In this document: positions 18,487 to 26,643 of the stretch, piece after piece
Layout of the letters: the number at the start of each line of letters is the position of its first letter
Position numbering within the stretch: position 1 is the stretch's first letter
Source of the DNA: Nibricoccus aquaticus
GTDB lineage: Bacteria; Verrucomicrobiota; Verrucomicrobiia; Opitutales; Opitutaceae
Direction of reading: 5' to 3'
Assembly: GCF_002310495.1 (NCBI RefSeq)
Contig: NZ_CP023344.1
Location: 2,108,001-2,172,000, forward strand
DNA: 64,000 nucleotides
Program-made: the position numbers and the translations under genes
The notes under the pieces: model-generated
What the model saw: only the letters and a program-made list of their open reading frames with translations
Told to the model about the DNA's origin: nothing
Databases searched by the model: none

Positions 18487-19626
18487 TCACTTGTTACGGA
18501 CGCGGTGGTAGAGGGCGAGGTACTGCGGGACGATGGTGGCGGCAGAGAATGCGGTGCGGGCTTTTTCGCGGGCGGCGTTGCCGAGGGCGGTGCGGCGCGG
18601 AGGGTCGGCTAGGAGAGATTCGGCGGCGAGGGCGAGGGCGTCGGGGTCGCCAAAGGGGACGCGCAGGCCGTTGAGGTTGTGGTCCACGACTTCGGGGATG
18701 CCGCCGACGTCGGTCGTGACGCTGGGGCAGGCGAAGGCCATGGCTTCGAGAATGCTCAGGCAGAAGCTTTCGGTTTCGGAGGTGAAGAGGGCGAGGTCGG
18801 CGGCGGCGAAGTAGTCCTCGATGTCGGGGACGTTGGTGCGGACGACGACGCGGTCCTGGAGGCCGAGGCGGAGGATGTCGGGGAGAAATGGTTCGAAGTC
18901 GCCGCCGGCGAGGATGACGAGTTTGAAGGCATCGGCCGGACGGATACGGGCGGCGGTTTCGAGGAGGAGGTCGATGCGCTTGAGCGGGCGGAGATTAGAA
19001 GCGTGGAGGATGAGGGCTTCGTTTTCTTTGAGGCCGAGGCCGGCGCGGATGGAGTCGCGGGATTCTTTGGGCGGGCGGGGCTCGAAGAAATTGTGGATGA
19101 CGTCGATGGGGCGTATGATGCCGAGGAGGCGGAGGGTTTCGGCTTTGAGGAAGTGGGAGACGGTGGTGATGGCGTCGGCACCTTCGAGGGCGTGGCGGAT
19201 GGCCGGGGCGTAGGCGGGGTCTTTGCCGAGGAGCGTGGTGTCGGTGCCGTGGAGGGTGGCGACGATTTTGGGGCGGAGCTCGGGCGGGAGCATGTCGCGC
19301 GCGAGGAGCGCGGCGGTGGCGTGCGGGACGGCGTAGTGGACGTGGAGAATGTCGAGGCGGTGCTCGCGGCTGACCTCGGCCATTTTGACGGAGAGCGGGA
19401 GCGTGTAGTCGGGGTATTTGAAGAGGCCGTAGTCGCTGATATCGACGGGATGGAAGAAGAGACGCGGCGCGTTGGCGGGCATCCGGAAGGGGCGCTCGTA
19501 GCTGATGAAGTGGACTTCGTGGCCGAGGCGGGCGAGTTCTTCGCCGAGGGCGGAGGCGAGGATGCCGCTGCCGCCGACGGAGGGATAGCAGGTGATGCCG
19601 ATTTTGAGTGGAGCGGGAGCGGACAT
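18487..19626 (-). CDS. bshA: N-acetyl-alpha-D-glucosaminyl L-malate synthase
   Basis: First enzyme of bacillithiol synthesis, joining GlcNAc from UDP-GlcNAc to L-malate. The N-terminus KIGITCYPSVGGSGILASAL, with HEVHFISYERPFRM, is the BshA signature, and the C-terminal GT-B domain has ASNLRPLKRIDLLLE and ETESFCLSILEAMAFACP. Starting at MSAPAPLKIGI gives 379 residues, the family's usual length; the open frame upstream is not protein-like. It follows bshB1 by 20 bp at the end of a six-gene operon. The product in this organism could be bacillithiol or a methylated or otherwise altered thiol. Confidence 0.92.
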   Translation of the reverse strand: MSAPAPLKIGITCYPSVGGSGILASALGEELARLGHEVHFISYERPFRMPANAPRLFFHPVDISDYGLFKYPDYTLPLSVKMAEVSREHRLDILHVHYAVPHATAALLARDMLPPELRPKIVATLHGTDTTLLGKDPAYAPAIRHALEGADAITTVSHFLKAETLRLLGIIRPIDVIHNFFEPRPPKESRDSIRAGLGLKENEALILHASNLRPLKRIDLLLETAARIRPADAFKLVILAGGDFEPFLPDILRLGLQDRVVVRTNVPDIEDYFAAADLALFTSETESFCLSILEAMAFACPSVTTDVGGIPEVVDHNLNGLRVPFGDPDALALAAESLLADPPRRTALGNAAREKARTAFSAATIVPQYLALYHRVRNK

Positions 19627-19646
19627 CGGTGGGCGGCGGAGGAAGA

Positions 19647-20366
19647 TTAAAACTGGCGGGCCGTGCGGGCGAGCTGTGCCAGGGAATCGAATACGAGCGG
19701 GTCGTTGGGGAAGAGCGCGGTGGCGTGGGCTACACCGGAGCGGAGGCCGTTGACGCGGGCGCGGGTGAGTTGGAGTTCGACGTAGTTGCGCGTGCGGAGC
19801 TGGGTGGTGTGGGCTTCCATGGCGGCGGTCCACGCGGGGACCGCGCTAGAGATGTCGATGAGGAGGGCGGAGCGGTCGGCGGGCTCGGCGTCGGGCGTGA
19901 TGGCGTAGAAGAGAAGCGAGGCGATGGCGTGCGCGGGAGTTTCACGGAGCTCGGCGACGCCGCCGTAGCGGGCGAGGCGGGCGGCGTCGCGGACGAGGCG
20001 GCCGACGATGACGTGGTCGGGGTGCTGGTTTTCGACGAGTGTGGGCGCGAGGACGATTTGCGGGCGGAGGCGGCGGATGATCGCGGCGAGTTGGAGAGCG
20101 TGGGCGACGGTGTGCGTGAGGTGGGCGTCGCCTCCGAGGTTTAGAAATTCGCAGGTGGCGCCGAGGAGAGCGGCGGATTTTTGCGCTTCGGCGGTGCGTT
20201 CGGCGGGGGTGCCGTTGGTGCCGGATTCGCCGCGCGAGCAGATGACGAAGTGGGCGGGGCGGCCGGACTGGGTTTCGCGGGCGATGACGCCGCCGCAGCC
20301 GAACTCGATGTCGTCGGGGTGGGCGCCGAAAGCGAGGAGCGTGGCGGGCAGATCAGACGGGGACAT
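19647..20366 (-). CDS. bshB1: PIG-L deacetylase, bacillithiol-type (BshB1)
   Basis: A zinc-dependent LmbE/PIG-L deacetylase that would convert GlcNAc-malate to GlcN-malate. With the start at 20366 it has 239 residues and opens with LAFGAHPDDIEFGCGG, the metal-binding HPDD motif at 16-19; the second His motif is NQHPDHVIVGRLV. SRGESGTNGTPAERTAEA is typical of BshB1. The start overlaps the end of the BshC-like gene by 14 bp; an alternative ATG at 20381 is possible. Its position between the BshC-like gene and bshA supports the assignment. Confidence 0.9.
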   Translation of the reverse strand: MSPSDLPATLLAFGAHPDDIEFGCGGVIARETQSGRPAHFVICSRGESGTNGTPAERTAEAQKSAALLGATCEFLNLGGDAHLTHTVAHALQLAAIIRRLRPQIVLAPTLVENQHPDHVIVGRLVRDAARLARYGGVAELRETPAHAIASLLFYAITPDAEPADRSALLIDISSAVPAWTAAMEAHTTQLRTRNYVELQLTRARVNGLRSGVAHATALFPNDPLVFDSLAQLARTARQF

Positions 20367-21141
20367 CGGTGTAGGCTTCATCGGAGCGGTCGATTTCGTC
20401 GCGGGTGACGAAGAGGATTTCAGGGGCGTCGGCTTTATTGAGATAAGCCTGTTCGCCGAGGCCGGCAATGTAGTGAGTGCAGTGGATGACGGATTGCATC
20501 CAGCGGAGGCGGGAGTCGCGCGTGGGGCTGATCTGAGATTTTTCCCAGGAGCCGGCGGAATGCGGGAGCGTGACGAAGGTGTTTCCGCCCTCGTGGAGCT
20601 GGAGGGAGTTGGCAGAAGGGTTGTGGCGGGCGCGGACGATTTCGCCTTCGTGCGGGACGTCTACGAAGAAGTCGGTGATGTCGCAGGCGGCGCGGCGGAC
20701 GTCGGGCGAGCTGGAGCGGACGATTTCCACGCCGTCGAGCAGGCCCATGTGGCGGTACATTTCGAGGCAGAAGTCGGCGATATTGACGGCCTCGGTTTTG
20801 CGGAAGGCATCGGTCCAGCACTGGGGGACGTAAGCGGGGAGCTGGCGGGCGGTGGTGTCGCGCCAGGCGGAAGTCACGCGCTTCGCGTAGAGTGGTGAGT
20901 ACTTACGCTGGAGTTTGTTTTCGAAGGCGAAGTTGAGCGTATGAGGCTCGCCGGTTTTGCGATGGCGGAGGCAGGTCTGGGTTTCGCGCGGGTCGTGGTC
21001 GCTGTCGTGATAGAAGAAGACGATGCGGCCGCCGATCTCGGATTGGAGACGGCGGGCCGTCTGGAATTTCGAATACAGAAACCGGCGGGGGAAAATCCCG
21101 CAGGGTTGCTGGCCGAAGCAGATGACGGGTGCAGCGCTCAT
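20353..21141 (-). CDS. BshC-like protein, about half length
   Basis: A 262-residue protein without a signal peptide. Its N-terminus VICFGQQPCGIFPRRFLYSK followed by FFYHDSDHDPRET resembles the Rossmann-like start of BshC (GQQ-x-G-x-F...YK...EDHD), the putative Cys-adding enzyme of bacillithiol synthesis. Normal BshC proteins are about 520-540 residues, so this one lacks roughly half, including the usual C-terminal coiled coil. It overlaps the symporter gene upstream (ATGA) and bshB1 downstream, exactly where bshC would be expected. The similarity is read by eye and the function is inferred from context. Confidence 0.65.
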   Translation of the reverse strand: MSAAPVICFGQQPCGIFPRRFLYSKFQTARRLQSEIGGRIVFFYHDSDHDPRETQTCLRHRKTGEPHTLNFAFENKLQRKYSPLYAKRVTSAWRDTTARQLPAYVPQCWTDAFRKTEAVNIADFCLEMYRHMGLLDGVEIVRSSSPDVRRAACDITDFFVDVPHEGEIVRARHNPSANSLQLHEGGNTFVTLPHSAGSWEKSQISPTRDSRLRWMQSVIHCTHYIAGLGEQAYLNKADAPEILFVTRDEIDRSDEAYTDVPV

Positions 21142-22856
21142 GCGGCGGTGGCAGATGTTTTTGCGGAGCCGAGAAGCGGTTGGAGCGCGAGGGCGAAGAG
21201 GACGCAGGCGGCGCAGCCGATGGGGTTGAGCCAGAGGTAGCCGATCTCGTGAGCGGGAAAAAATTTCCCGAGGGCGAAGATGGCGATGACGACGAGTTGC
21301 GCGGCGATGGCGGCGTAGAAGACGGCGGAGCCGCCGACTTTCTTGAAGAAGAAGGCAACGATGAAGACGCCGAGCAGCGCGGGATAAAAGATGGAGGCGA
21401 CGATGTTGAGCGCTTCGATGAGGTTTTCGGCGAAGCTGACGAAGAGTGCGAAGCCGATGGCGAAGAGTCCCCAGACTGCGGTGAACCATTTCGCGTTTCT
21501 CACGTTGCGGGCTTCGTCGTGGGCGGCGAGCGGGCGGAAGTGGCGCCAGAGATCGATCGTGCTCGTGGTGCCGAGGGCGTTGAGCTCGCCGGCTTTCGAG
21601 GAGAGCGCGGAGGCGAACATGACGGCGATGAGCAGGCCGATGGCGCCGTGCGGGAGCTGGGTGAGGATGAAGGTGATGAAGACGAAGTCGGAGTCGCGGG
21701 TTTTTTTGGCCTCGGGGGAAACGGCGTAGAGGGCGTTGCGGGCTTCGTTGCGGAGCGTTTCGGAGGCGGCTTGGGATTCGGCGAGGGCGGCGCGGGCAGT
21801 GTATTCGAGCTGTGGATCGGCGGAGGCGCGGGCGTCGGAGAAGGCGCGGATTTTCTCCTGTTTGTCGGCGTGGAGGGCCGTGTGTTTTTCCTCGAAGGCG
21901 CGGAAAGTGGCGGCTTGCGGACCGTCGAGCTGGCGGCGCCATTCGGTCTGGTTGAAGAGAAGCGGCGTGGTTGGGGAGAACTGATAGAAGACGAAGAGGA
22001 GCGCGCCGAGAATCACGATGAAGAATTGCATCGGGATCTTGAGGAGGGCGTTGAACATGAGGCCGAGGCGGCCCTCGCGGAGGGCGGCGCCGCCGATGTA
22101 GCGCTGGACCTGCGTTTGATCGGTGCCGAAGTATGAGAGCGAGAGGAAGAAGCCGCCGATGAGGCCGCTCCAGAGCGTGTAGCGTTGCTTGAGGTCGGGC
22201 TCGTAGCTGACGGCATCGAGTTTATCCATCGCACCGGCAATGTGCATCGCGTCGGGAGGGAGTTTCACGAGCAGGACGACGAAAGCGGTGAGCATGCCGC
22301 CGAAGATGACACCCATCTGCCATTTTTGGGTGAGGTTCACGGCGGCGCTGCCACCGGTGACGGTGTAGACGATCGCGAGCAAGCCGGTGAAGACGATGGT
22401 GAGATCGACGCGCCAGCCCAGCACGGTGGAGAGGATGATGGCGGGCGCGTAGATGGTGATGCCGCACTGGAGGCCGCGCTGGAGGAGGAACAGGCTTGCG
22501 CCGAGGAGGCGGGTTTTGCGGTCAAAGCGTTGACCGAGGTATTCGTAAGCCGTGTACACGCCGAGCTTGCGGTAGATGGGGAGGAAGACGGCGCAGACGA
22601 GGATGAGCGCGAGCGGGAGGCCGAAATAATTTTGGATGAAGGCGATGCCGTTTTCGTAGGCCTGGCCGGGAAGCGACAGGTAGGTGATCGTGCTTGCCTG
22701 CGTGGCCATGACGGAGAGGCCGATGGTGCCCCATTTGGTCGTCTGGCTGCCCTTGAGGTAGGTGTTGAGATTGTCTGTGTGGCGCGTGCGCCAGGTGCCG
22801 TAGGCGGCGATGCCGAGCATGGTCCCGAGGAGGACGATCCAATCGAGGCCGTTCAT
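21138..22856 (-). CDS. Sodium/solute symporter (SSS family)
   Basis: A 572-residue membrane protein with about 13 hydrophobic helices. It starts MNGLDWIVLLGTMLGIAAYG; the signature region includes YLKGSQTTKWGTIGLSVMAT and LSLPGQAYENGI. Between helices about 8 and 9 lies an extended, charged, coiled-coil-like insert (about 300-385, FRAFEEKHTALHADKQEKI). SSS carriers import sugars, amino acids or similar solutes with Na+. The start overlaps the stop of the 52-residue membrane protein (ATGA) and its own stop overlaps the BshC-like gene, so it belongs to the thiol operon. Confidence 0.92.
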   Translation of the reverse strand: MNGLDWIVLLGTMLGIAAYGTWRTRHTDNLNTYLKGSQTTKWGTIGLSVMATQASTITYLSLPGQAYENGIAFIQNYFGLPLALILVCAVFLPIYRKLGVYTAYEYLGQRFDRKTRLLGASLFLLQRGLQCGITIYAPAIILSTVLGWRVDLTIVFTGLLAIVYTVTGGSAAVNLTQKWQMGVIFGGMLTAFVVLLVKLPPDAMHIAGAMDKLDAVSYEPDLKQRYTLWSGLIGGFFLSLSYFGTDQTQVQRYIGGAALREGRLGLMFNALLKIPMQFFIVILGALLFVFYQFSPTTPLLFNQTEWRRQLDGPQAATFRAFEEKHTALHADKQEKIRAFSDARASADPQLEYTARAALAESQAASETLRNEARNALYAVSPEAKKTRDSDFVFITFILTQLPHGAIGLLIAVMFASALSSKAGELNALGTTSTIDLWRHFRPLAAHDEARNVRNAKWFTAVWGLFAIGFALFVSFAENLIEALNIVASIFYPALLGVFIVAFFFKKVGGSAVFYAAIAAQLVVIAIFALGKFFPAHEIGYLWLNPIGCAACVLFALALQPLLGSAKTSATAA

Positions 22857-23011
22857 GCGAAAACGCGGGAGAAGATCGTGAGCGCGATCACGACGACGAT
22901 GAAGCAGCCGAAGACGAAGAGGTACACGCCGCGCCAGGTGCGGAAGCCGGGAACGCCGGGGGCGGATTCGGCGTGCGGTGTTGGCGGAGAGTTGGGCGGT
23001 GGCGTGTTCAC
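22853..23011 (-). CDS. Small single-pass membrane protein, 52 residues, GTG start
   Basis: This short gene fits exactly between its neighbours: its GTG overlaps the stop of the PIG-L gene (GTGA) and its TGA overlaps the symporter start (ATGA). The protein is a Pro-rich N-terminal tail (about 22 residues) and one hydrophobic helix, WRGVYLFVFGCFIVVVIAL, ending IFSRVFA. It could be an accessory subunit of the symporter, as small partners exist for other sodium symporters. No homologue is recognised. The overlap at both ends is the main evidence that it is translated. Confidence 0.7.
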   Translation of the reverse strand: MNTPPPNSPPTPHAESAPGVPGFRTWRGVYLFVFGCFIVVVIALTIFSRVFA

Positions 23012-25530
23012 TTTCCGAGGGAGACGAGGTTGGCGAAGAGACGATACGCACCGGGGACGCCTTCGGGCAACTCGCGGAACCAGGAGAGGCCGGTATACAC
23101 GAACCAGCCTTTGCCGTGTTGGGCGACGAGGAGTCCGCCGGAGAGCGGGGTTTCGCCGGCGTCGGCGCAGGCAATTAGAGGCGTGAACTCGGGCGCCCAC
23201 TGATTGGGAAAATAGAGACCGCGTTCCTGGACCCAGCCGTCGAAGTCGGCGGAGGTGATTTTGTTGGGCGTATTAAGTGCGGGGTGGTTGGGCGCGAGGA
23301 TCGTGACGGTGGCGTTTTCTTCGGTGACGCGGTCGCGGGAGATTTTGAGGTCGTAAGGCGCGAGCGGTGCGGAGGGGAGATCGGCGGTGGTGTTGTACTG
23401 GACGATGACGGTGCCGCCGTTTTTGGCGTAGTCGAAGAGCGCGGGGAGCTGCGGGACAAGATCGGTGCGGGTGTTGAAGGCGCGGATGCCGAGGACGACG
23501 GTGTCGAAGGAGCGAAGGCGGTCGATGGTGAGATCGGCGCCGGTGAGGAATGTCACCGAATAGCCCATACGCGTGAGGCTGTCGGCGACGAGATCGCCGG
23601 CGCCGGGAAGATAACCGACGGTTTTGCCGCGAATCTGGAGATCGATGCTGACAGCTTTCAGGCTGGCGGGCGGCTGCAGCAGTTGTGGCGGGATGTGGTC
23701 GTAGCGGATATCGATGCGGCGGTTGCGGTAGGTGACGTTGTCGATGTCGGCGGCGGCGGTGAGTGAGGCGGTCGCGGGCGCGGAAGATGCGGATGTCTGG
23801 GGAGAAACGGTGAAGGTGAGGAGGGACTTCTCCCCTACTCTGCCGAGCGCGAATGGCTGGGAGGACGGTGAGGTTTTCCAACCGGAGGGGGCTTCGATTC
23901 GGAGCGTGCCGGTGGTGCTGGTGCGGGCGGCGGTCACTTCGACAGCGACGGTTTTGGCGGAGCCGGGGGAAAAGAGTTCGAGGTTTTGGGTGAAGCCGAG
24001 CGAGACGGGCGGGATGACGGCGAGGCGGCGGCGGATTTCGCCTTTGACGGGGTCGTCGATCACTTGGACGGGTTCGTCGGCGACGATGAGGGTTTGTCCG
24101 GCGATCTCGATGAAGTGCTCGACGGGGAAAGCGGGCGGGTTTTCGGGGAGGCCGATCAAGGCGGGGTCGGCGACGGCGAACATGCCGGCGGTGCCGTCGC
24201 TGCGAAGCCAATACGGTTGAGTGAGCGAAGTCGCGGGGGGGAGCGGCTGGGCGTTTTCTTGGTTGAGGGCGACGTTGGCGGCTAGGTCGGTGGCGACGGG
24301 GATTTCGGTGGCGAGAGTGGGATAGCGCGTGGCGAGCCAGCGGACGGGGAAGTTGTTTCGCGCGATGAGCGTGTGGCGGAGTTTTAAGGTTTCGCCGGGG
24401 ACGGCTTCGGCTTGGGGGATGACGGTTTCCCAGTGGAGGCCGAGGCAGGCGGTGAGGATGCGATCGAGGTGGGCGCGTTTGTCGGCGAGGATTGGATCGG
24501 TCGGAAGCGCAGCGAGCGCGGAGCGGATTTCGAGGAGCGCGGGGATGCTAGCGGCGGGGTTTTGGGGAGAGAAATTTTTGAGCGCGGCGTCGGTGAGCGG
24601 GCCGAGGGCGGCGGCTCCGGGGATGCGGGACCAGGTAGTGTCGATGCCGTCGAGGATGTCGGTCGTGGCGGGTTCGCCGGCGAGGAGCTGGAAGTGTTCG
24701 TAGGCGGTGCCGCGGGTTCCGACGGAGCCGAAGCCCTGGCTCTTGTGCATGGTGCGGCTGCGGGCGGCGATTTCGCCGAAGGATTCTCCGAGAAGCGGAT
24801 TGAAGCCGCCGACATCGAGACGGAGCACGGTGGGATTCGCGGACTGGCCGGTGCGGCTCGCGCCGCTGGGGCCGGTGTTCCAGAGGACGCGTTTCGCCTG
24901 CCAGGGCGGCAGATGGCCGAGCTCTTTAGAGAAGGCAGCTGGATCGGCCGCTAGTGTGAAGGCTTCGAGGGCGAGGATGGCGGAGGCGGTGTGGTGGCCG
25001 TGGGTGGTGCCGGGTTGGGGGGAAAAGCGCGTGACGAGGACATCGGGCCGGAAGGTGCGGATGACGCGTATCATATCGGCAAGGACTTGATCGCGGTTCC
25101 AGATGGAGAGGGTTTCGCGGTAGTCTTTGGAGAAGCCGAAGTCGTTGGCGCGGGTGAAGAATTGTTGAGCGCCGTCGATGCGGCGGGCGGCGATCAGCTC
25201 CTGCGTGCGGATGAGGCCGAGGGAATCGCGGAGCTCGGTGCCGATCAGGTTCTGGCCGCCGTCGCCTCGGGTGAGCGAGAGATAGCCGGTGCGGTAGCCG
25301 CGGCCGCGCGCTAGGTAGGCGATGAGGCGGGTGTTTTCGTCGTCGGGATGGGCGGCGACGTAGAGGACGCTGCCGAGTTCGCGGAAGCTGCGGAGCTCCT
25401 GGAGGATTTCGCCCGACGACAGCGGAGTGGCTGAGGCAGGTGCGGCGGGTTGAGCGAAGGCGTGGGAGGCGAAGAGCAAAACGGTGGCTCCGAGAAGTCT
25501 GGTGGCCAGCCGCCAGAGCGGGTGATGCAT
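23008..25530 (-). CDS. Large secreted PIG-L family deacetylase
   Basis: An 840-residue exported protein. A signal peptide ends near ASHAFAQP. Residues about 40-260 are a PIG-L/LmbE zinc deacetylase domain: YVAAHPDDENTRLIAYLARG, GDGGQNLIGTELRD, and the second metal motif TTHGHHTAS. The C-terminal half has beta-sandwich regions and a ThuA/GATase-like segment (FDTVVLGIRAFNTRTDL, then GTVIVQYNTTADL). It would remove N-acetyl groups from an extracellular or periplasmic amino-sugar conjugate. It is the first gene of the operon that ends with bshB1 and bshA. The substrate is unknown. Confidence 0.85.
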   Translation of the reverse strand: MHHPLWRLATRLLGATVLLFASHAFAQPAAPASATPLSSGEILQELRSFRELGSVLYVAAHPDDENTRLIAYLARGRGYRTGYLSLTRGDGGQNLIGTELRDSLGLIRTQELIAARRIDGAQQFFTRANDFGFSKDYRETLSIWNRDQVLADMIRVIRTFRPDVLVTRFSPQPGTTHGHHTASAILALEAFTLAADPAAFSKELGHLPPWQAKRVLWNTGPSGASRTGQSANPTVLRLDVGGFNPLLGESFGEIAARSRTMHKSQGFGSVGTRGTAYEHFQLLAGEPATTDILDGIDTTWSRIPGAAALGPLTDAALKNFSPQNPAASIPALLEIRSALAALPTDPILADKRAHLDRILTACLGLHWETVIPQAEAVPGETLKLRHTLIARNNFPVRWLATRYPTLATEIPVATDLAANVALNQENAQPLPPATSLTQPYWLRSDGTAGMFAVADPALIGLPENPPAFPVEHFIEIAGQTLIVADEPVQVIDDPVKGEIRRRLAVIPPVSLGFTQNLELFSPGSAKTVAVEVTAARTSTTGTLRIEAPSGWKTSPSSQPFALGRVGEKSLLTFTVSPQTSASSAPATASLTAAADIDNVTYRNRRIDIRYDHIPPQLLQPPASLKAVSIDLQIRGKTVGYLPGAGDLVADSLTRMGYSVTFLTGADLTIDRLRSFDTVVLGIRAFNTRTDLVPQLPALFDYAKNGGTVIVQYNTTADLPSAPLAPYDLKISRDRVTEENATVTILAPNHPALNTPNKITSADFDGWVQERGLYFPNQWAPEFTPLIACADAGETPLSGGLLVAQHGKGWFVYTGLSWFRELPEGVPGAYRLFANLVSLGK

Positions 25531-25758: not shown

Positions 25759-26643
25759 TTATTTCAGCGAGGCGATGAGGTCGTTGTTCATCTTCACGAA
25801 GCCGCTTTGCGGGCCTTCGACGGCGACGGCGAGTTCGGAGGATTGTTTCGCGGCAGCGATGGCGTCGGCCTTTTCGCCGAGTTTCGCGAGGATCTTGGCC
25901 TTCAAGTGGACCATGTAGAACGCGGGTTTGTCGCCGGCGGTGGCCTCGGTGATGAAGGCTTTGGCCTTGGTGAGATCGAGGCCTTGGTCGAAGTAGAATT
26001 GAGCGGCGTTGAAGTAGAAGCCGGAGGATTTTTTGGCGGGGGATGCGAGGGCGGCTTCGATCTGGGGGACGACGAGGCTGGCAGTGTCGACGGTGAGTTT
26101 AATCGGGACGCGGGTGCGTTCCCAGCGGAGATTGAGCGTGGCGGACTCGTTGCGGATGTCGTTCACGTCGATCGTGAAGGTCTCGACGACTTCGGTGAGT
26201 TTGACGGGCGTGGCGGTGAAGCGGGCGATGTCGTTTTTGGCGTCGTACTTGTAGGCGCCCCATTGAGAAGAATCTTTGTGGATGATGACGGTCCACTCAG
26301 TTTCGCCGGGGATGGTGAAGAGCTCGTAGGTGCCGGCGGGAATGTCGGTGCCGTTGAGTTTCACGGGTGTGCTGACGGTGAGCTTGGTGGCGTTGTTGGC
26401 GCCGGTGCGCCAGATTTTGCCGTAGGCTTCGAGTCCGCCGAAGATGGTGCGGCCTTTGACGCTGGGGCGGGAGTAAACGACTTCGATGTCGGTGAGGCCG
26501 ACGCGTTGTTTGAGCGTGCTGGCGGGGCTGGCGGCGGGGAAGGTGACTTTGGGGGCCTCGGCTGGCTGGGCGAAGGTGGTGGAGGCGAGAGCGAGGGCGC
26601 AGGCGAGCAGGGCGGCTGGGCGTAGGACGGATGCAATGGTCAT
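25759..26643 (-). CDS. Exported DUF2911 protein
   Basis: A 294-residue protein with a signal peptide ending near STTFAQP. The DUF2911 domain (about 35-190) is recognisable by VVYSRPSVKGRTIFGGL, YGKIWRTGANNATKL, PAGTYELFTIPGETEWTVI and FHK-like IIHKDSSQWG. The C-terminal ~90 residues are helical, TPR-like (FYFNAAQFYFDQGLDLTKA). The function of DUF2911 is unknown. It precedes the PIG-L gene on the same strand, with 228 bp between, so it is likely a separate transcript. Confidence 0.88.
   Translation of the reverse strand: MTIASVLRPAALLACALALASTTFAQPAEAPKVTFPAASPASTLKQRVGLTDIEVVYSRPSVKGRTIFGGLEAYGKIWRTGANNATKLTVSTPVKLNGTDIPAGTYELFTIPGETEWTVIIHKDSSQWGAYKYDAKNDIARFTATPVKLTEVVETFTIDVNDIRNESATLNLRWERTRVPIKLTVDTASLVVPQIEAALASPAKKSSGFYFNAAQFYFDQGLDLTKAKAFITEATAGDKPAFYMVHLKAKILAKLGEKADAIAAAKQSSELAVAVEGPQSGFVKMNNDLIASLK

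Follow-up and report, generated by a model that had tools for sequence, protein, structure and literature searches.

Within a 64,000-nucleotide stretch of the Nibricoccus aquaticus genome (NZ_CP023344.1, positions 2,108,001 to 2,172,000; hereafter the window), inspection of the sequence places six genes on the minus strand between positions 18487 and 25530. They encode a long exported PIG-L hydrolase, a 52-amino-acid (aa) membrane protein, a sodium:solute symporter (SSS), a 262-aa protein that we call C262, a BshB1-like deacetylase and BshA. We found that C262 belongs to a half-size, BshC-like family that has no database model and replaces canonical BshC in 17 of the 19 BshA genomes of a sample of 288 Verrucomicrobiota genomes. 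The conserved gene set probably makes a bacillithiol-like molecule with this previously unrecognised half-size enzyme, and the exported hydrolase and sodium-driven importer may recycle the product. We see about an even chance that the operon does both, producing a molecule of the bacillithiol type and salvaging the backbone of that molecule. The initial annotation of this locus, which had called the protein BshC-like and had proposed retrieval of a thiol from outside the cell, did not recognise the half-size family; this minimal ligase is the more important of the two findings.

C262 matched no model in Pfam or NCBIfam, and a search of the whole genome, a single 4.73-Mb contig, with the BshC model PF10079 gave no match even at E ≤ 10. 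Searches of PDB chains with C262, by phmmer and by profile, returned chance matches only and did not reach BshC. An AlphaFold model built from 36 sequences had a mean predicted local distance difference test (pLDDT) score of 94.2 and a predicted template-modelling (pTM) score of 0.91. It bore out the BshC-like label, with B. subtilis BshC (4wbd) as the closest solved structure (Foldseek E 4.6e-10; Z 20.6, root-mean-square deviation 2.7 over 244 of 262 residues). In second place, and clearly more distant, came class I lysyl-tRNA synthetase (LysRS; Z 14.5); further class I aminoacyl-tRNA synthetases reached Z 9.0 at most. The model thus predicts for C262 a catalytic core of the class I synthetase type that is seen in 4wbd. 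It is half as long as BshC (262 versus about 540 aa): the model lacks the N-terminal part and the coiled coil of BshC and ends after the core, with no long C-terminal helices. Among 28 members with at least 55% identity to the window protein, 72 alignment columns were invariant, GQQ and DHD among them. PF10079 touched three of 28 C262 proteins (best E 8.4e-6), and its sub-threshold matches in two genomes, G286 and G220 (G and L numbers are our labels for genomes and loci), were their C262 genes. The proposed homology of C262 and BshC rests on the fold match, these weak Pfam matches and the replacement pattern described below. We also considered a zinc site of the cysteinyl-tRNA synthetase (CysRS)/MshC type at the invariant Cys14, Cys221 and His223 of C262, and do not claim it; the spacing known from CysRS fits poorly.

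To follow the ligase across the phylum, we used the 288 genomes drawn from Verrucomicrobiota. BshA exceeded its cut-off in 19 of them, the next match falling to 165.7 bits, and C262 was present in 17, the same 17 being recovered by single-sequence and profile searches. PF10079 passed its cut-off in two genomes (G046 and G126), which are the two BshA genomes without C262, and in none of the 17 C262 genomes. Each of the 19 BshA genomes therefore has exactly one ligase type, 17 C262 and two canonical BshC, and the other 269 have neither. Fisher tests gave p 1.5e-25 for C262 with BshA and p 1.1e-27 for PIG-L with BshA; these values are descriptive and ignore relatedness, which reduces the number of independent events. 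In genera g6 and g18 some members carry the full gene set and a single one in each (G152 and G105, respectively) carries no gene of it; this joint absence suggests joint gain or loss. It is extremely unlikely, in our judgement, that C262 is a remnant of BshC, degenerate or with a regulatory role, and that another enzyme performs the ligation: the half length of C262 and its lack of the coiled-coil domain, needed for BshC dimerisation according to the available text of PMC4360819, would suit a remnant, but the 72 invariant columns, with GQQ and DHD, and the strict replacement of BshC within the sample argue against one. The two canonical-BshC genomes form a second lineage, in which bshC-bshB-bshA lies behind an S-adenosylmethionine (SAM) methyltransferase gene (L103 at 12-16 kb in G046; L104 at 10-15 kb in G126); this gene may be a candidate NmbA.

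We next considered conservation of the neighbourhood. Exact peptides from the C262 of the window served to scan one genome per species; of the 299 stretches found, the best 80 were compared. Locus counts were taken without de-duplication between the genome scans, some loci of the two scans having contigs of equal length, and neighbour counts include only those of the best 80 loci with enough flank. Upstream of C262 we found SSS at 62 of 67 loci, the 52-aa gene at 58 of 67, PIG-L at 51 of 57 and a DUF2911 gene at 44 of 51; downstream, BshB was present at 76/76 loci and BshA at 66/69. The stop of the 52-aa gene overlaps the SSS start by exactly 4 nucleotides (nt) in 60 of 65 measured loci. The conservation of gene order is more than chance. 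The chain of six genes with overlapping starts and stops that had been noted in the window keeps its order in most relatives with flank, and it is conserved outside this genome, 79 of the best 80 of 299 stretches carrying the label of a Verrucomicrobiota group, in most cases Opitutaceae or Opitutia. The exception, L064, is a 418-kb contig labelled Cyanobacteria bacterium SZAS-4 that has a typical operon with a C262 67% identical to that of the window; the contig may be mis-binned, or the operon transferred. At L036 and L092 an extra gene on the opposite strand sits between SSS and C262, and BshA was not found downstream of C262 at these two loci or at L041.

The long PIG-L consists of a signal peptide, an MshB/Mca-like metal hydrolase domain, a beta-sandwich region and a C-terminal ThuA/GATase1-like domain. 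It exceeds the PF02585 cut-off (59 versus 28.2 bits), and its AHPDDE motif and both His residues of HxxH do not vary in two alignments, one of 36 sequences of the Verrucomicrobiota type and one of 13 mixed sequences. When the mature protein was modelled with AF2 (pLDDT 88.7), the PIG-L domain was structurally closest to MshB (Z 20.7, 26% identity), followed by BshB (Z 17.8), and the C-terminus matched ThuA/GATase1-like folds (Z 15-17); Foldseek's own ranking of the model put a sperm-axoneme chain first, then chitobiose deacetylases. A simple hydropathy rule placed a hydrophobic segment at the N-terminus of 59 of 63 Verrucomicrobiota-type PIG-Ls and of one of 10 alphaproteobacterial ones; from sequence, export looks conserved in Verrucomicrobiota.

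The long PIG-L (E ≤ 1e-40) occurred in 18 of the 288 genomes, namely the 17 C262 genomes and G126, and in 0/269 BshA-negative genomes. Likewise, SSS (E ≤ 1e-60) was present in 17/17 C262 genomes and in G126, and in none of 22 BshA-negative relatives chosen from the same family and order. Of the 17 C262 genomes, 15 have the PIG-L gene next to the bsh genes; in the other two, G088 and G268, it lies far away. In G126 a separate cluster holds PIG-L, a small membrane gene, SSS and DUF2911, with bshC-bshB-bshA elsewhere; the small gene is only weakly similar to the 52-aa gene (26% identity, E 7e-4). The module is thus found in 18 of 19 BshA genomes, with either ligase, and therefore follows synthesis of a glucosamine-malate (GlcN-malate) thiol. 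The tie of thiol synthesis to a periplasmic hydrolase-importer module, which had been proposed from the window, is well supported: it is conserved across loci and is seen in genomes with unlinked genes as well. DUF2911 also adjoins the separate module of G126 (L141). The nearest solved sequence to SSS is 5nv9, a "putative sodium:solute symporter" (E 3e-37). This is SiaT, a sialic acid transporter, whose solute is an acidic amino sugar. As a hint to the solute this is weak, because iodide and monocarboxylate carriers score almost equally.

In the pathway that we favour, BshA would make N-acetylglucosamine-malate (GlcNAc-malate), the BshB1-like enzyme would convert it to GlcN-malate, and C262 would ligate an amino acid, most likely cysteine, to GlcN-malate. 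PIG-L would be a periplasmic counterpart of the intracellular amidases Mca and Bca, with the released thiol, the disulfide of this thiol or its S-conjugates as substrates; SSS would bring back GlcN-malate, and C262 would recharge it.

Several observations weigh against this pathway. PIG-L and SSS are missing beside the C262-BshB-BshA core at four loci (L019, L020, L024 and L050), and no BshB gene lies between C262 and BshA in two of the 17 C262 genomes, G254 (L107) and G271 (L115). In these two, deacetylation of GlcNAc-malate would have to fall to another PIG-L. A search of G046, which has BshA and canonical BshC, found neither the long PIG-L nor SSS. The best NCBIfam model for the window PIG-L is Mca (TIGR03446), yet the score is 47.8 bits against a cut-off of 277, and the score for the MshB model is also far under its cut-off. 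An hhalign comparison of C262 with five BshCs gave a probability of 16% and E 0.0016, covering the N-terminal GQQ...DHD block only. A consensus-to-consensus alignment of C262 and BshC reached a score of 133, which the top-scoring one of 200 shuffles matched (mean 99.9, standard deviation 12.7), and the alignment put the C-terminal part in the wrong place. Because the profile comparison and the plain alignments are weak, we regard C262 as a very divergent, core-only BshC relative. DinB-type transferases, taken as a thiol marker, were not clearly enriched (7/17 C262 versus 6/22 BshA-negative genomes). Finally, YpdA (TIGR04018) over its cut-off, BrxA/B (PF06491) and BrxC (PF11009) were each found in 0/17 C262 genomes.

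The missing redox partners raise the alternative that the product is not bacillithiol, C262 joining another amino acid or other acid to GlcN-malate to give a metabolite without a redox role that has an import and turnover arm of its own. All three partners were found in both canonical-BshC genomes (G046 and G126), which, together with the divergence of C262, reached by the BshC family model in only 3/28 members, speaks for this alternative. The controls, which include three genomes with BshC, bear on it in the other direction: among these three, only one has PF06491 and two have PF11009, so a single missing partner is not decisive. YpdA passes in three control genomes, and its absence therefore weighs most. 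The fold of C262 is closest to BshC, with no other ligase closer. Either other redox partners are used or the amino acid on GlcN-malate is not cysteine; we give cysteine the edge because the fold is that of BshC and BshA is a close family match, and we consider a non-bacillithiol product unlikely, though to be taken seriously.

Two other readings concern the exported module. The initial annotation had the secreted PIG-L deacetylate GlcNAc-malate or an N-acetylated conjugate outside the cell and the symporter import the amine. PIG-L family chemistry is often N-deacetylation, the structural neighbours include MshB, BshB and chitobiose deacetylases, and two genomes lack BshB in the operon, as described above; however, a BshB1-like deacetylase is already present in 76/76 loci with flank, so that synthesis needs no further one, and nothing points to export of GlcNAc-malate. 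We hold external deacetylation to be quite unlikely. Alternatively, PIG-L, the 52-aa protein and the symporter could take up an unrelated amino sugar, for instance from chitin or peptidoglycan, and merely share the operon. Alphaproteobacterial homologues of the long PIG-L adjoin sugar importers, and the module in G126 has a GH3 gene and another symporter close by. This very unlikely reading would leave unexplained why the long PIG-L is absent from all 269 BshA-negative Verrucomicrobiota and why its association with BshA holds where the genes are unlinked.

The alphaproteobacterial context bears on the reaction of PIG-L. Full-length PIG-L homologues were found in 21 alphaproteobacterial plasmid records, with 27-30% identity in the seven that were aligned; a search of the plasmid records for C262 gave no match. 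We examined the contexts of 13 of the 21 records (L130, L131, L132, L134-L140, L148-L150). All 13 had one gene order: an ATP-binding cassette (ABC) transporter ATPase, an argininosuccinate-lyase-type gene, genes for permease and solute-binding proteins, a ROK regulator and PIG-L. Twelve of the 13 also had a kinase, of the PfkB type in 11 and of the ROK type in the twelfth; a drug/metabolite transporter (DMT) occurred in nine of 13, nagB in one and a cysteine dioxygenase nearby in one. The catalytic loop SSIMPQKRNP is kept in 8/8 annotated alphaproteobacterial lyases; the textbook pattern G-[ST]-[ST]-x-M-P-x-K-x-N matched none of the eight, the loop being present with Ile or Val for Gly. The lyase passes one ArgH model (312 versus 279.5 bits) and fails the other (338 versus 883 bits).

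The plasmid cluster seems to encode a pathway that breaks down a glycosyl-malate or a compound like it. In such a pathway, a cysteinyl-GlcN-malate compound would be imported, PIG-L would cleave its amide, fumarate would be eliminated from GlcN-malate and the glucosamine would be phosphorylated. The context thereby suggests, by inference, amide cleavage by PIG-L and breakdown of a GlcN-malate compound. Of the retrieval idea, the coupling of uptake to thiol synthesis gains from presence-absence patterns that extend beyond one genome; its deacetylation step fares less well, amide cleavage being favoured by the plasmid context. Two points speak against GlcN-malate catabolism: the plasmid-cluster lyase, which in Loktanella has an arginine deiminase operon 3 kb from it, may be no more than a paralogue of ArgH, and a different glycosyl-aspartate or glycosyl-malate could be the substrate. 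A broader, tentative and somewhat doubtful proposal is an extracellular economy of GlcN-malate thiols, which Verrucomicrobiota make and reclaim and alphaproteobacterial plasmid clusters eat. Verrucomicrobiota would use the half-size ligase for synthesis and the periplasmic amidase and sodium symporter for reclaiming. In the alphaproteobacteria, a sugar ABC transporter would import the compound, a PIG-L without signal peptide would free the amino acid, and a lyase of the fumarase superfamily would split GlcN-malate into glucosamine and fumarate ahead of a sugar kinase.

With the BshA-BshB-BshC pathway for bacillithiol in B. subtilis and C. tepidum, the operon shares BshA, a BshB1-like deacetylase, a ligase of predicted BshC fold and adjacent genes. 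It differs in that the ligase is 262 rather than about 540 aa long, lacks the coiled coil and escapes PF10079, in that an exported hydrolase and a symporter are part of the operon, and in that C262 genomes lack YpdA over the cut-off, BrxA/B and BrxC. The long PIG-L has the metal hydrolase fold and motifs of Mca, MshB and Bca; unlike them it has 840 aa, a signal peptide, beta-sandwich and ThuA/GATase1-like domains, and its scores fall far short of the cut-offs for Mca and MshB. According to the available text of PMC4360819, the amidases Mca and Bca act before product export. The glutathione import locus of S. aureus, an ABC transporter with a predicted gamma-glutamyl transpeptidase (PMC10355420), likewise couples a hydrolase gene to a thiol transporter. 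Its enzymes and thiol are different, and in the present operon the hydrolase and transporter genes come together with those for making the molecule.

According to the accessible portion of a 2018 survey (PMC6282198), no low-molecular-weight thiol was documented or predicted for Verrucomicrobia, and only proteins of similar length were counted as orthologues. The criteria of a 2025 survey, as given in its accessible text, were similar length, more than 80% coverage and more than 25% identity, and Verrucomicrobiota are not named in the main text (PMC12719100). A 262-aa ligase would escape both surveys because BshC matches had to be of similar length. C262 offers a testable prediction for a missing step in a phylum reported to be without a predicted thiol of this kind. 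As of 2015, the BshC reaction had not been demonstrated in vitro and the ligation mechanism was called unknown, at least in the available text of PMC4360819; C262 would offer a minimal catalytic core for this enzyme. For recycling or taking up a molecule of the bacillithiol type, PIG-L and the symporter form a candidate module. The literature searched named no half-size BshC, bacillithiol salvage or PIG-L/argininosuccinate-lyase cluster.

The gene coordinates are given in Table 1, with the DUF2911 gene, the usual upstream neighbour of PIG-L.

Table 1. Genes of the bsh operon of N. aquaticus and its upstream neighbour, in window positions
Feature	Positions	Strand	Length	Basis
Long exported PIG-L	23008..25530	-	840 aa	PF02585 7e-16
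Single-pass membrane protein, GTG start	22853..23011	-	52 aa	read from sequence
Sodium:solute symporter (SSS), ATG start	21138..22856	-	572 aa	PF00474 1e-33, TIGR00813 204 bits
C262, putative minimal BshC-like ligase, ATG start	20353..21141	-	262 aa	sole BshC homologue found in genome
BshB1-like PIG-L deacetylase, ATG start	19647..20366	-	239 aa	TIGR04001 133 bits
BshA, GlcNAc-malate synthase, ATG start	18487..19626	-	379 aa	TIGR03999 390 bits
DUF2911 protein, usual upstream neighbour of PIG-L	25759..26643	-	294 aa	PF11138 1.3e-57

Overlaps of 4 nt join PIG-L to the 52-aa gene, the 52-aa gene to SSS, and SSS to C262. C262 and the BshB1-like gene overlap by 14 nt, and a 20-nt gap follows before bshA. 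Raw open reading frames (ORFs) of 529 aa for C262 and 448 aa for BshA were rejected in favour of refined ATG starts. Both bshA and bshB1 had been described as clear, which is correct for BshA (390 bits against the curated TIGR03999 cut-off of 273.7) and slightly overstated for the BshB1-like protein, which stays under the TIGR04001 cut-off (133 versus 182.5 bits), although that model is still the best by far. No signal peptide was seen in the 239 residues of the BshB1-like protein. With scores taken on the raw ORF that contains it, SSS exceeds the cut-offs of both TIGR00813 (204 versus 184 bits) and PF00474 (117 versus 22.8 bits).

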